Source: Pseudomonas fluorescens Q2-87 (GTDB lineage: Bacteria; Pseudomonadota; Gammaproteobacteria; Pseudomonadales; Pseudomonadaceae). Taken from it: DNA of 64,000 nucleotides. Positions 20,897-61,936 of this stretch are shown in pieces. The translations under genes were made by a program, and so were the position numbers. Location of the stretch: NCBI RefSeq assembly GCF_000281895.1, contig NZ_CM001558.1, positions 3,786,556 through 3,850,555 on the forward strand. Direction: 5' to 3'. The notes under the pieces were generated by a model, which saw only the letters and a program-made list of their open reading frames with translations, was not told where the DNA came from and made no database searches. Positions within the stretch are counted from its first letter, which is position 1. Each line of letters starts with the position of its first letter.

Positions 20897-21976
20897 ATGA
20901 TCCAAGCGCGCTTTCAACTCGACCGTGGTGATTTTTCCCTGGACCTGGACGTGCAACTGCCAGGCCGGGGCGTGACCGCGCTGTATGGTCAGTCCGGCTC
21001 CGGCAAGACCACTTGCCTGCGCTGCATGGCGGGGCTGGAGCGGCCGAGTCAGGGTTTCATCGAGGTCAACGGCGAAGTCTGGCAGGACACTGACCGCGGC
21101 GTGTTCGTGCCGCCTCATCAGAGGGCCCTGGGCTATGTGTTCCAGGAGGCGAGTCTGTTCGCTCATTTGTCGGTGCGGGCCAACCTGGCGTTCGGCCTCA
21201 AGCGCATCGCCCCGGCGCAACGGCGAGTGGGCATGGAACAGGCGAGCGAACTGCTGGGCGTCGGTCATCTGCTCGATCGGCATCCGCAGCATTTGTCTGG
21301 CGGCGAACGCCAACGGATAGGCATCGCCCGGGCCTTGCTGACCAGCCCTCGCCTGCTGTTGATGGACGAGCCGTTGGCGTCCCTCGATACCCGACGCAAA
21401 AACGAAATCCTGCCCTATCTGCAACGGCTCCACGACGAGTTGGATATCCCGGTGCTGTACGTCAGCCATTCCCAGGATGAAGTGGCGCGCCTGGCCGATC
21501 ACATCGTGCTGCTCGACGATGGCCGCGCGCTGGCCAGCGGGCCTATCGGCGAAACCCTGGCCCGGCTCGACCTGCCGCTGGCCCTGGGGGACGACGCGGG
21601 GGTGGTGATCCAGGGCAGGGTCAGCGGCTATGACCCGGCCTACCAGCTCCTGACACTGACCCTGCCTGAGAGCCAATTGAACATGCGTGTAGCCCACACC
21701 CCCTTGGCCGTTGGACAAGCGCTGCGCTTCAAGGTCCAGGCTCGGGACGTCAGCCTCAGCCTGGCGAACGATGCCCAGACCAGCATTCTCAATCGCCTGC
21801 CCGTCACGGTGATCAGCGAACTGGCCGCCGACAACGCCGCCCATGTGCTCATTCGCCTGGAAGCCGCCGGCACGCCATTACTGGCGCGCATCACCCGTTA
21901 TTCCCGCGATCAGTTGGGCCTGTACCCGGGGCAATGCCTGTGGGCGCAGATCAAGGCAGTGGCGGTGTTGGCGTAG
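20897..21976 (+). CDS. modC: Molybdate ABC transporter ATPase
   Basis: 359 residues. Walker [11 protein letters not shown]-loop [12 protein letters not shown], signature [16 protein letters not shown], Walker [13 protein letters not shown] and the switch His of [10 protein letters not shown]. The C-terminal third (about 290-359; [20 protein letters not shown]) is a molybdate-binding TOBE domain. Energises uptake through ModB. It is the last gene of modABC; the REP array begins 25 bp after its stop. Confidence 0.97.
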
Positions 21977-22000
21977 GGCTGGGCCTGCGCGGTGCCCCTT

Positions 22001-23696
22001 GTGGGAGCGAGCTTGCTCGCGATGACGGCGGCACCTCCAACATTGATGCAAGCTGATTCACCGCATTCGCGAGCAAGCTCGCTCCCACAGTAGATCGCGG
22101 GTGTACGCGGCATTTGCATACGGCATTGAACCCTGTGGGAGCGGGCTTGCCCGCGAAGACGGCGGCACCTCCAACATTGATGCAAGCTGATTCACCGCAT
22201 TCGCGAGCAAGCTCGCTCCCACAGTAGATCGCGGGTGTACGCAGCATTTGCATACGGCACTGAACCCTGTGGGAGCGGGCTTGCCCGCGAAGACGGCGGC
22301 ACCTCCAACATTGATGCAAGCTGATTCACCGCATTCGCGAGCAAGCTCGCTCCCACAGTAGATCGCGGGTGTACGCGGCATTTGCATACGGCACTGAACC
22401 CTGTGGGAGCGGGTTTACCCGCGAAGACGGCGGCACCTCCAACATCGATGCAAGCTGATTCACCGCATTCGCGAGCAAGCCCGCTCCCACAGTAGATCGC
22501 GGGTGTACGCAGCATTTGCATACGGCACTGAACCCTGTGGGAGCGGGCTTGCCCGCGAAGACGGCGGCACATCCAACATCACTTCAAGCTGACCCACTGC
22601 ATTCGCGAGCAAGCTCGCTCCCACAGTGGATCGCGGGTGTATGCAGCATTTGCATACGGCACTGAACCCTGTGGGAGCGGGTTTACCCGCGAAGACGGCG
22701 GCACATTCACCATCACTTCAAGCTGACCCACCGCTTTCGCGAGCAAGCCCGCTCCCACAGTAGATCGCGGGTGTACGCAGCATTTGCATACGGCATTGAA
22801 CCCTGTGGGAGCGGGCTTGCCCGCGAAGACGGCGGCACCTCCAACATTGATGCAAGCTGATTCACCGCATTCGCGAGCAAGCTCGCTCCCACAGTAGATC
22901 GCGGGTGTACGCGGCATTTGCATACGGCACTGAACCCTGTGGGAGCGGGCTTGCCCGCGAAGACGGCGGCACCTCCAACATTGATGCAAGCTGATTCACC
23001 GCATTCGCGAGCAAGCTCGCTCCCACAGTAGATCGCGGGTGTACGCAGCATTTGCATACGGCACTGAACCCTGTGGGAGCGGGCTTGCCCGCGAAGACGG
23101 CGGCACCTCCAACATTGATGCAAGCTGATTCACCGCATTCGCGAGCAAGCTCGCTCCCACAGTAGATCGCGGGTGTACGCGGCATTTGCATACGGCACTG
23201 AACCCTGTGGGAGCGGGTTTACCCGCGAAGACGGCGGCACCTCCAACATTGATGCAAGCTGATTCACCGCATTCGCGAGCAAGCCCGCTCCCACAGTAGA
23301 TCGCGGGTGTACGCAGCATTTGCGTAAGGCACTGAACCCTGTGGGAGCGGGTTTACCCGCGAAGACGGCGGCACCTCCAACATTGATGCAAGCTGATTCA
23401 CCGCATTCGCGAGCAAGCCCGCTCCCACAGTAGATCGCGGGTGTACGCAGCATTTGCATACGGCACTGAACCCTGTGGGAGCGGGCTTGCCCGCGAAGAC
23501 GGCGGCACCTCCAACATTGATGCAAGCTGATTCACCGCATTCGCGAGCAAGCTCGCTCCCACAGTAGATCGCGGGTGTACGCGGCATTTGCATACGGCAC
23601 TGAACCCTGTGGGAGCGGGCTTGCCCGCGAAGACGGCGGCACATCCACCATTACTTCAAGCTGACCCACCGCTTTCGCGAGCAAGCTCGCTCCCAC
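22001..23696. repeat. Tandem array of 13 REP doublets, period 134 bp
   Basis: Thirteen copies of a family A REP doublet begin at 22001 and then at each 134 bp (22135, 22269 ... 23609) without any length change. Each unit has GTGGGAGCGGGCTTGCCCG, about 40 bp of linker (GACGGCGGCACCTCCAACAT...), the inverted REP (GCGAGCAAGCTCGCTCCCAC), and a 45-bp spacer with GATCGCGGGTGTACGC and CATTTGCATACGGCA. Units 5, 6 and 13 carry a variant linker with ACTTCAAGCTGACCCA, and the REP loop varies among TTGCCC, TTTACC and TTGCTC. The spacer itself is repeated, so growth was by tandem duplication. No gene lies here. Confidence 0.97.
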
Positions 23697-23791
23697 AGGG
23701 GGTTGCGGGCAACCTCAAAATCTTGGCACGACCGCAACGGGCTGCGGTCAATCGATCACAGGCCACCGGATTCGCCGCCAAGGATTTTTTC

Positions 23792-24829
23792 ATGCCCGAC
23801 ATTCTGCCGCCGGATGCGCTGCCGGCCGACCTGCATTACGTCGAAGACACCGCTCCCGGTATCACTCGCCGCAAACTGCGAGGCAAGTTCTGCTATTTCG
23901 ATCCCCAGGGACAGCGCATCACCGACCCCGCCGAGATCCAGCGCATCAATGCCCTGGCGGTGCCGCCGGCCTATACCGAGGTGTGGATCTGTACCGACCC
24001 GCGCGGTCATCTCCAGGCCACCGGTCGCGATGCCCGGGGGCGCAAGCAGTACCGCTACCACGAGCGCTGGCGGGAGGTGCGCGATGCCGACAAGTATTCT
24101 CGAATGCTGGAATTCGGACGCACCCTGCCCCGCTTGCGCAAACGCCTCGAGGAAATCCTGGCCAAGCCTGGGTTCAGCCGCGACAAAGTCATGGCCACCG
24201 TGATCACTTTGTTGGACGTGACCCTGATCCGGGTCGGCAACAGCCAATATGCCCGGGACAACCGCTCCTATGGGCTCACCACCCTGCGCAGCAAACACGT
24301 CGAGGTCAACGGCAGCGCCATCGCCTTCCAGTTCCGCGGCAAGAGCGGTGTCGAACATCAAATCACGGTGAAGGACCGACGCCTGGCGCGAATCATCAAG
24401 CGCTGCCAGGAGATCCCCGGCCAAAACCTGTTCCAGTACCTGGACGAAAACGGCGAGCGCCATTCCATCAGTTCTTCCGATATCAATGCCTACCTCAAGA
24501 CCCTCACTGGCGCCGATTTCACGGCCAAGGATTACCGCACCTGGGCGGGTAGCGCAGCGGCTCTGGCCGGGTTGCGGGCGCTGCGTTGGGAAACCGAGGC
24601 GCAGGCGAAAAAACACGTCGCCGAGATGGTCAGGCAAGTCGCCCGCCAGTTGGGCAACACGCCAACCGTCTGTCGTAAATGCTACATTCACCCTGCGGTG
24701 GTGGAGAGTTTCATGCTCGGCGCCTTGAACGAGCTGCCCAAACCCCGGCAACGCAAAGGCCTCAGTGAGGAAGAAGCCGGGCTGACGATGTTTCTGACGC
24801 GCATAACACAAGCGGCCGAGGCCTGCTGA
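23792..24829 (+). CDS. DNA topoisomerase IB (poxvirus type)
   Basis: Relaxes supercoils through a 3'-phosphotyrosyl intermediate. 345 residues, usual for the bacterial family. N-terminal beta domain (about 1-95; ITRRKLRGKFCYFD), then the catalytic domain with RVGNSQYARDNRSYGLTTL, the active-site residues in KSGVEH and KDYRTWAGS (catalytic Arg and His candidates), and the nucleophile Tyr298 in CRKCYIHPAVVESF. The ATG at 23792 follows AAGGA. The frame is also open into the last REP unit upstream, which I exclude. Confidence 0.94.
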   Translation: MPDILPPDALPADLHYVEDTAPGITRRKLRGKFCYFDPQGQRITDPAEIQRINALAVPPAYTEVWICTDPRGHLQATGRDARGRKQYRYHERWREVRDADKYSRMLEFGRTLPRLRKRLEEILAKPGFSRDKVMATVITLLDVTLIRVGNSQYARDNRSYGLTTLRSKHVEVNGSAIAFQFRGKSGVEHQITVKDRRLARIIKRCQEIPGQNLFQYLDENGERHSISSSDINAYLKTLTGADFTAKDYRTWAGSAAALAGLRALRWETEAQAKKHVAEMVRQVARQLGNTPTVCRKCYIHPAVVESFMLGALNELPKPRQRKGLSEEEAGLTMFLTRITQAAEAC

Positions 24830-45651: not shown

Positions 45652-45744
45652 TTCGCGAGCAAGCCCGCTCCCACTTGTGTTCTCCTGCGAACACATATCT
45701 TGTGTGCACATCAGATCCAGGGTGGGAGCGGGCTTGCTCGCGAA
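45652..45744. repeat. REP doublet, family A, in reversed arrangement
   Basis: Here the inverted REP comes first (TTCGCGAGCAAGCCCGCTCC, 45652) and the direct one second (45722). This is the opposite of the other doublets, perhaps neighbouring halves of two doublets. Confidence 0.8.
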
Positions 45745-61201: not shown

Positions 61202-61423
61202 GAGTTTGCCTCCTGCTGAGTACTCAGCCCGGTAGAACCCGCGAACCCGCCGGTGTTCCACTTGGCGGACGACGCGCACCTTCCTCTATCACGCCAACCA
61301 AAGGTAGCTGAACGAGCTATCACTGCCATCGATGTTCACCATCATGTCAATGAAGTTCTCTTGATGATTGCCCGGCGCAACAATGGCATCACACCAACCC
61401 ACTACACCCCGGAGCACACCATC

Positions 61424-61936
61424 ATGAAACGCCAACTCATCCTCAGCTTCGCTTTCTCGGTACTGGCCGCCAACGTATTCGCCGCCTCCTCCCAACCGGT
61501 CGTTGCCGAAGGTGGCTCTGATCGCTTGATCGAAAATCGCGTTGCCGAAGGCGGTGCTGATCGTCTGCTGGAACGTCGCGTTGCCGAAGGTGGTTCTGAT
61601 CGCCTGATCGAGAACCGCGTTGCCGAAGGCGGTGCTGATCGTCTGCTGGAACGTCGCGTTGCCGAAGGTGGTTCTGATCGCCTGATCGAGAACCGTGTTG
61701 CCGAAGGCGGTGCTGATCGTCTGCTGGAACGTCGTGTGGCTGAAGGTGGCTCTGATCGCTTGATCGAAAATCGCGTTGCCGAAGGCGGTGCTGATCGTCT
61801 GCTGGAACGTCGCGTTGCCGAAGGTGGTTCTGATCGCCTGATCGAGAACCGCGTTGCCGAAGGCGGTGCTGATCGTCTGCTGGAACGTCGTGTGGCTGAA
61901 GGTGGCTCCGACCGTCTGGCCCAGAACCGCGCATGA
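61424..61936 (+). CDS. Exported protein of eleven 13-residue repeats
   Basis: 170 residues: a Sec signal peptide (MKRQLILSFAFSVLAANVFA, cleavage near FAA), a short SSQP linker, then eleven tandem units of the form VAEGG(S/A)DRL(I/L)E(N/R)R. Two unit types alternate strictly: VAEGGSDRLIENR and VAEGGADRLLERR; the final one is VAEGGSDRLAQNRA. No cysteine, no other domain. GGAG is nine bases before the ATG. Similar secreted repeat proteins in Pseudomonas are sometimes labelled 'phage infection protein' as I recall; no function is demonstrated to my knowledge. Copy number may vary. Confidence 0.9.
   Translation: MKRQLILSFAFSVLAANVFAASSQPVVAEGGSDRLIENRVAEGGADRLLERRVAEGGSDRLIENRVAEGGADRLLERRVAEGGSDRLIENRVAEGGADRLLERRVAEGGSDRLIENRVAEGGADRLLERRVAEGGSDRLIENRVAEGGADRLLERRVAEGGSDRLAQNRA
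61502..61930 (+). repeat. 39-bp tandem repeat, eleven copies (78-bp double unit)
   Basis: Each 39-bp unit starts GTTGCCGAAGG and two adjoining units make a 78-bp double unit. Some double units are identical at the DNA level and others differ only in silent positions, showing recent duplication. It lies wholly within the coding region. Confidence 0.95.

Follow-up and report, generated by a model that had tools for sequence, protein, structure and literature searches.

Tandem clusters of REPINs, i.e. inverted doublets of repetitive extragenic palindromic (REP) sequences, have been known in kind since 2011. The genome of Pseudomonas fluorescens SBW25 contains 16 tandem REPIN clusters in which the flanks are repeated as well, the largest consisting of four REPINs and one REP (over 700 bp), and also two near-identical 12-REP arrays of another type; a second mechanism for REPIN cluster formation was proposed by the authors (Bertels and Rainey 2011, PMC3116915; this and the other papers are cited for the parts covered here). 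Tail-to-tail REP dimers of the GTAG-1 type are frequent in P. putida and P. entomophila, with complementary ends in some of the spacers, and large clusters reiterate the dimers together with flanking DNA (Di Nocera et al. 2013, PMC3733652). For the P. fluorescens group, oppositely oriented REP pairs at a uniform spacing of 60-70 bp have been reported, as well as a gene for a REP-associated tyrosine transposase (RAYT) that is flanked by a REPa element in nine of ten genomes (Loper et al. 2012, PMC3390384). Here, we describe an array of thirteen REPINs with an exact 134-bp period in P. fluorescens Q2-87, which is located between modC and the gene for topoisomerase IB (topIB) in a stretch of 64,000 nucleotides (contig NZ_CM001558.1, positions 3,786,556 to 3,850,555; hereafter the window).

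This array is not new in kind. It resembles the SBW25 clusters in that nearly identical REPINs are repeated with flanking sequence, and differs from them in the number of REPINs (thirteen, compared to at most four plus one REP) and in the REP core; no dispersed palindromic family is described for the SBW25 flank in the sections covered (PMC3116915). The regular spacing of alternating REPs and the tie to a RAYT gene are shared with the bacterial interspersed mosaic elements (BIMEs) of Escherichia coli (BIME-2) and Stenotrophomonas; however, the inter-REP segments of the Stenotrophomonas BIMEs are unrelated, whereas the tail-to-tail segments described here (hereafter linkers) have a narrow length range and a consensus shared across loci (PMC2817692). 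Similarly, tail-to-tail spacers of GTAG-1 dimers are variable and head-to-head spacers conserved, as a rule of thumb, whereas here the tail-to-tail spacer is also narrow in length and has a recognisable consensus (PMC3733652). In P. aeruginosa, BIMEs are tandemly repeated and polymorphic (variable-number tandem repeats), and their REP sequence differs from that of the window (PMC5977238). The linker consensus was not met in the REP literature searched (including PMC2718517, PMC8266576 and PMC12306157), the scope of which stopped short of figures, supplements and subscription papers.

Structure of the array

The thirteen REPINs (91 bp each) follow one another at steps of 134 bp without any indel at positions 22000-23698; this step separates successive left ends (22000 to 23608) as well as successive right ends (22090 to 23698) throughout (n = 13 each). 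Tandem Repeats Finder independently returned the same interval, with a period of 134, 12.7 copies, 95% matches and 0% indels; thus, the number of doublets, the exact period and the location given in a preliminary description of this DNA were confirmed. The copy number is that of one assembly (chromosome as a single contig, 100% complete). Each internal unit is composed of a head-to-head REPIN (91 bp) and a tail-to-tail linker of 43 bp (91 + 43 = 134), the latter corresponding to 46 nt when measured between the 22-nt REP cores, which is the measure used for the spacer counts below. In all 13 units the REPs are inverted, the GTGG ends lie outside and 44 nt separate the REP cores, and the four units that were folded (units 2, 4, 6 and 13) each formed a long hairpin from end to end on both strands (-46.5 to -61.1 kcal/mol). 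The resulting 26 REPs alternate in orientation at regular steps of 66 and 68 bp, as in a tandem REPIN cluster or BIME.

By unit alignment, unit 1 (22000-22133) consists of a REPIN with a private left REP (22000-22090) and a linker (22091-22133). Units 2 (22134-22267; REPIN 22134-22224) and 8 (22938-23071; REPIN 22938-23028) are identical, as are, across 134 bp, units 3 (22268-22401; REPIN 22268-22358), 7 (22804-22937; REPIN 22804-22894), 9 (23072-23205; REPIN 23072-23162) and 12 (23474-23607; REPIN 23474-23564), i.e. 7 of the 66 pairs among the 12 complete units. There are two REP types, distinguished by positions 13, 16 and 80, which change together: the T13/A16/C80 type is found in units 4 (22402-22535; REPIN 22402-22492), 6 (22670-22803; REPIN 22670-22760), 10 (23206-23339; REPIN 23206-23296) and 11 (23340-23473; REPIN 23340-23430). 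Likewise, there are two hairpin-loop types, the second of which is confined to unit 5 (22536-22669; REPIN 22536-22626), unit 6 and the terminal unit 13 (23608-23698), a REPIN that is not followed by a linker of the internal type. The REP-loop variation noted in the preliminary description was reproduced; its placing of the differences of units 5, 6 and 13 in the linker was not, as these lie mostly within the hairpin (unit columns 36-66), only unit 5 of the three having private linker changes too (n = 2), and one linker change of unit 6 being common to unit 1.

With loop type, REP type and a single linker position as the code for each unit, units 7-10 repeat the order seen in units 1-4, and a run of this length was obtained in 1.2% of 20,000 shuffles of the unit order. 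The recurring block fits unequal exchange or conversion, in line with the gene conversion or mixed duplication history suggested before.

Other assignments of the array were considered and rejected. Open frames on the minus strand are present, and these follow the repeat, which argues against a coding role. All 35 Rfam matches at E ≤1 were to microRNA families and under the gathering scores, and were taken as chance hairpin matches. Unique spacers, as in an array of clustered regularly interspaced short palindromic repeats (CRISPR), are not present; the linkers in the window are repeated, at a mean of 1.5 edits apart.

The linker family and other arrays

In 40 stretches of 20 kb sampled at even spacing across the genome (800 kb in total; 12.6% of its length), 188 REPs were found, compared to 2 after base shuffling; hence, the match to the REP core is not due to chance. 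In this sample, the head-to-head spacers measured 43-44 nt in 51 of 57 pairs and the tail-to-tail spacers 43-48 nt in 27 of the 39 pairs under 80 nt (12 of these 27 in two arrays), and one further tail-to-tail spacer measured 141 nt. At a limit of 60 nt, the stand-alone doublets comprised 35 head-to-head and 19 tail-to-tail pairs.

REP doublets had been described as scattered one at a time elsewhere; this is contradicted by at least four other arrays in this genome, with 12-18 REPs each. Two of these (L009, 14 REPs; L010, 18 REPs) were found through their similarity to the window unit, and two (L155, 12 REPs; L163, 15 REPs) in the unbiased sample. All five arrays found in this genome have units of 131-135 bp, in which the steps measure 65-66 bp head-to-head and 65-69 bp tail-to-tail. 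Such units also occur in a related species, Pseudomonas sp. K18 (L058, 1040-2746), whose array of 26 REPs (134-135 bp per unit) is located at a different site, upstream of modC. In several relatives, tail-to-tail doublets are present at a similar distance upstream of modC as the K18 array, these sites being matched by distance and not by alignment. In a genus search with linker plus REP as the query, genome G010 had four consecutive matches at a spacing of 134 bp, and G293 had three at 136 bp. The common period of arrays at unrelated loci is attributed to the conservation of the tail-to-tail linker at a nearly fixed length.

Two further observations concern repeats of this kind. In L155 (8572-10554; G000:C1:328572-330554), the array linker reappears about 1.25 kb further on, past a transposase-like open frame, which we take to resemble IS110; an insertion probably split this array. 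In L011, a REPIN and its flank are repeated identically over 236 bp (1186-1421 and 2106-2341) at a shift of 920 bp.

The linker is, as judged from sequence comparison, a member of a dispersed, imperfectly palindromic family that joins REPs tail-to-tail at a nearly fixed length, and not the flank of this locus. Of its 43 positions, only 18 match the native right flank of the array and 17 the left flank, whereas its average distance is about seven edits to the linkers of two other arrays of the chromosome, i.e. L009 at 2.21 Mb (mean 6.9, minimum 5) and L010 at 3.04 Mb (mean 6.7, minimum 3); the proposal that the unit had been duplicated together with its local flank is not borne out by these values. 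From the linkers of L155, L163, L058 and the RAYT locus L198, the window linkers differ by a mean of 17.6 to 22.3 edits. With exact end motifs, 165 tail-to-tail pairs with a gap of 25-55 nt were found in the whole genome, compared to 2 with a gap of 56-86 nt; array copies and pairs with a linker of a shorter type are counted among the 165. In the window itself, a tail-to-tail REP doublet that stands alone (45653-45743) has a 47-nt spacer that was grouped with the linker family.

For 54 non-redundant linkers (96 distinct ones minus near-duplicates, some from loci chosen by similarity to the window linker), the mean edit distance to a consensus drawn up by eye from linkers of this genome was 15.7, compared to 26.7 ± 0.27 after shuffling; for 11 non-redundant linkers from loci that were not linker-selected (L044-L059), the values were 16.8 and 26.9 ± 0.61. 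The linkers also resemble their own reverse complement, both in this genome (n = 25; mean 20.9 edits, shuffled 25.6 ± 0.57) and elsewhere (n = 19; mean 20.4 edits, shuffled 25.5 ± 0.59). A consensus pair was not predicted by RNAalifold on the linkers. A structure named by hand had 61.6% paired cells (shuffled 60.1 ± 1.1%; 42 of 500 as high), a covariation score of 0.194 (shuffled 0.178 ± 0.014; 64 of 500) and 65 cells changed on both sides (shuffled 50 ± 8; 12 of 500), and 29-47% of cells were paired when the partner was slid as a control. When placed between fixed REP arms, single linkers gave better folds than their shuffled versions (mean z -2.43; z below -1.64 in 34 of 54). The linker is a conserved inverted repeat, and the covariation support for its pairing is weak.

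Across 59 genomes of the genus, this one included, a pattern search found tail-to-tail pairs with a 25-55-nt gap in 45; those of G070 and G017 have, among the matches listed, mostly other palindromic spacers of about 34 nt. One Pseudomonas genome (places in G070, and L215) contains 308 tail-to-tail pairs, among the matches listed mostly with a palindromic spacer of about 33-34 nt, a linker type that differs from that of the window and belongs to another lineage.

The search for a RAYT gene suggested in the preliminary description was successful: a Y1_Tnp match (G000:C1:1555393-1555701; 39.4 bits) carries an exact 22-nt REP core on both sides, and beyond each of these REPs a tail-to-tail linker and then another REP follow, the two linkers being 44/45 identical. 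The genome thus encodes a RAYT-like gene flanked by the same REP, which is one of the marks of a REPIN system. We read this Y1-transposase gene as the putative cognate RAYT, which would occupy the place of the head-to-head loop in the REP lattice and presumably acts on REPs of the window type. Three further Y1-transposase matches are located within 3.5 kb (L194-L196; G000:C1:4476458-4479969); no REP core (≤7 mismatches) was found in the 3.3-kb loci around them.

History of the site and origin of the array

The modC-topIB site was compared in relatives of topIB (the best 80 of 570 confirmed loci). The nearest clade is taken to comprise 16 loci (L044-L059; 88-92% identical) and G010 from another search (90%; possibly of a species already among the 16), n = 17; the collections hold one genome per species. 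A single REPIN between modC and topIB is present in 12 of these 17, i.e. in G010 and in 11 loci identified by REP scan, among which L046 has a longer loop. Of the others, L044 and L045 contain diverged REPIN versions (alignment), L058 two same-orientation REPs and about 400 bp of other sequence, and L059 a remnant at most, while the locus is interrupted by a contig end in L053. No array was found at this site in any of the 16 nearest related loci that span it. In 64 more distant loci (L060-L123), no REP (≤5 mismatches) was found in the 2.5 kb preceding topIB; modC and topIB are 104-148 bp apart by BLAST in these loci, a distance that includes some topIB coding sequence (about 42 bp for a match beginning at residue 15). 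Because of the single REPIN in 12 of 17, the lack of an array in the 16 spanning loci and the lack of a REP in the 64 distant loci, the array most likely expanded within this lineage, at a site already holding one element, and the local amplification proposed earlier agrees with this (no array in 16 of the 17 nearest loci, namely those spanning the site).

The array is a tandem REPIN cluster (a BIME-like REP lattice), and we regard it as probable that it started from a single resident REPIN at the modC-topIB site, as is still found in the nearest related species. Units with the linker type now found in the 2.21-Mb and 3.04-Mb arrays would have entered this resident REPIN, by recombination or by RAYT-mediated REP-REP strand transfer, and the array would then have grown to 13 units by unequal exchange or conversion, including the duplication of a block of about four units. 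Several points weigh against this explanation: the block was recognized on 12 units by three marks that were picked after viewing the alignment, the native flanks weakly resemble the linker (shuffle p 0.016 right, 0.029 left), the origin of the linker is derived from similarity, with no intermediate seen among the loci compared, and the site was compared between species, without strains of the same species. The resemblance between flank and linker could reflect distant homology.

In-place slippage or unequal crossing-over, from a single local REPIN with its own flank, would account for the tandem order of the units, the identical pairs among the complete units, the related species with a single REPIN and the weak likeness of linker and flanks; it is unlikely, as the linker that is repeated differs strongly from the local flanks and is close to the linkers of the 2.21-Mb and 3.04-Mb arrays. 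A RAYT-driven rolling-circle amplification, in which REPs are nicked by the transposase and the array arises at once through repeated copying and re-ligation of a circular basic module (Nunvar et al. 2010, PMC2817692), is a possibility we hold tentatively; it overlaps with the explanation favoured here, the entry step of which is left open. This published model is in accordance with the RAYT-like gene between exact REP cores and near-identical linkers, and with the equal period at unrelated loci. One-step copying of a module predicts near-identical units, whereas two loop types, two REP types and a mixed block order are found; later mutation and conversion could have blurred the uniformity of the units, and sequence alone does not decide here. 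Finally, we hardly believe that the copy number or the period is an assembly product: short reads struggle with arrays of this length, but there are many ordered differences between the units, and the chromosome was assembled into one contig.

A wider reading, possible but doubtful at present, extends beyond this site to a clade-wide regular REP lattice, in which the head-to-head and the tail-to-tail intervals would both be dispersed palindromic elements of almost constant length (REP starts about 66 and 68 bp apart), the transposase system would copy whole periods of about 134 bp, and isolated REPINs would be remnants with worn tail-to-tail halves as outer arms. A half-linker profile, trained on half-linkers of other species, gave higher scores for the sequence immediately adjoining isolated REPINs than for these sequences after an outward shift; at the outermost 12 positions, 24% of 114 flanks of this genome and 17% of 83 flanks of other species (a set that shares loci, not sequences, with the training set) were above the 95th percentile of the shifted positions, and most flanks of isolated REPINs did not exceed it. 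These scores suggest that the element may be, or may have been, longer than a REPIN. Clean empty sites were obtained for two loci only, with net inserts of 130-164 bp at the modC-topIB site and 109-122 bp at the other, compared to about 91 bp for a bare REPIN; their outgroups are distant, and this agreement with a longer element is counted as weak. Sites A and B were discarded as empty sites because they resemble deletions inside a REPIN; site C was not clean either. Against a longer unit, excision reads in SBW25 cover approximately the REPIN alone (PMC3116915).

Neighbouring genes, function and significance

The array is flanked by two genes on the + strand. The upstream neighbour (20897-21976) encodes a molybdate ABC-transporter ATPase (Pfam ABC_tran, 2.8e-30; TOBE, 2.2e-13), for which the earlier name modC fits, and the downstream neighbour (23792-24829) encodes topoisomerase IB (Pfam Topoisom_I, 4.2e-39; Top1B_N_bact, 9.8e-27). 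Between these genes and the array lie a native left flank or terminal left arm (21977-21999), which differs from the internal linker on comparison with linkers and related loci, and a native right flank or terminal right arm (23699-23730), which can be aligned to the sequence on the right of the single REPIN in related species. Elsewhere in the window, an open frame with a signal-like start (61220-61933, + strand) contains a 13-residue repeat in 11 copies (VAEGGSDRLIENR / VAEGGADRLLERR), with a DNA period of 39/78 bp.

The preliminary description had also suggested, as a speculation, a link between the array and the topoisomerase gene. Selection of the array as a topological or transcriptional element, i.e. 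as a gyrase-binding buffer or as an attenuator controlling topoisomerase IB, might be considered in view of gyrase binding by E. coli BIMEs (PMC2817692, PMC3686654) and of the long hairpins formed by the four folded units (of 13). However, the other four arrays found in this genome adjoin other genes (MATE/HAD; enoyl-CoA hydratase/acyl-CoA dehydrogenase; a Pot permease and an IS110-like transposase; PhnD/Pit-like; names read from translations, not from family searches), a topoisomerase gene adjoining none of the four; the array is absent from the 16 related loci spanning the site, and neither a promoter-like nor a terminator-like site was found by a simple scan of 21800-23850 (shuffles give 0.5 and 1.4). 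Selection of this kind is therefore highly unlikely, and the functional link to the topoisomerase gene was rejected, since there is no recurrence at the four other arrays and a single REPIN is already present at the site in related species. That the array affects read-through from modC into topIB is plausible. The array is most likely a passive amplification of non-autonomous REP DNA.

The array is highly regular, appears to be specific to this lineage and occupies a site where relatives keep one REPIN; this locus therefore represents a tractable case for how such arrays form, be it by recombination or by a RAYT. The conserved tail-to-tail linker of near-fixed length suggests, furthermore, that the copied unit may exceed the REPIN.
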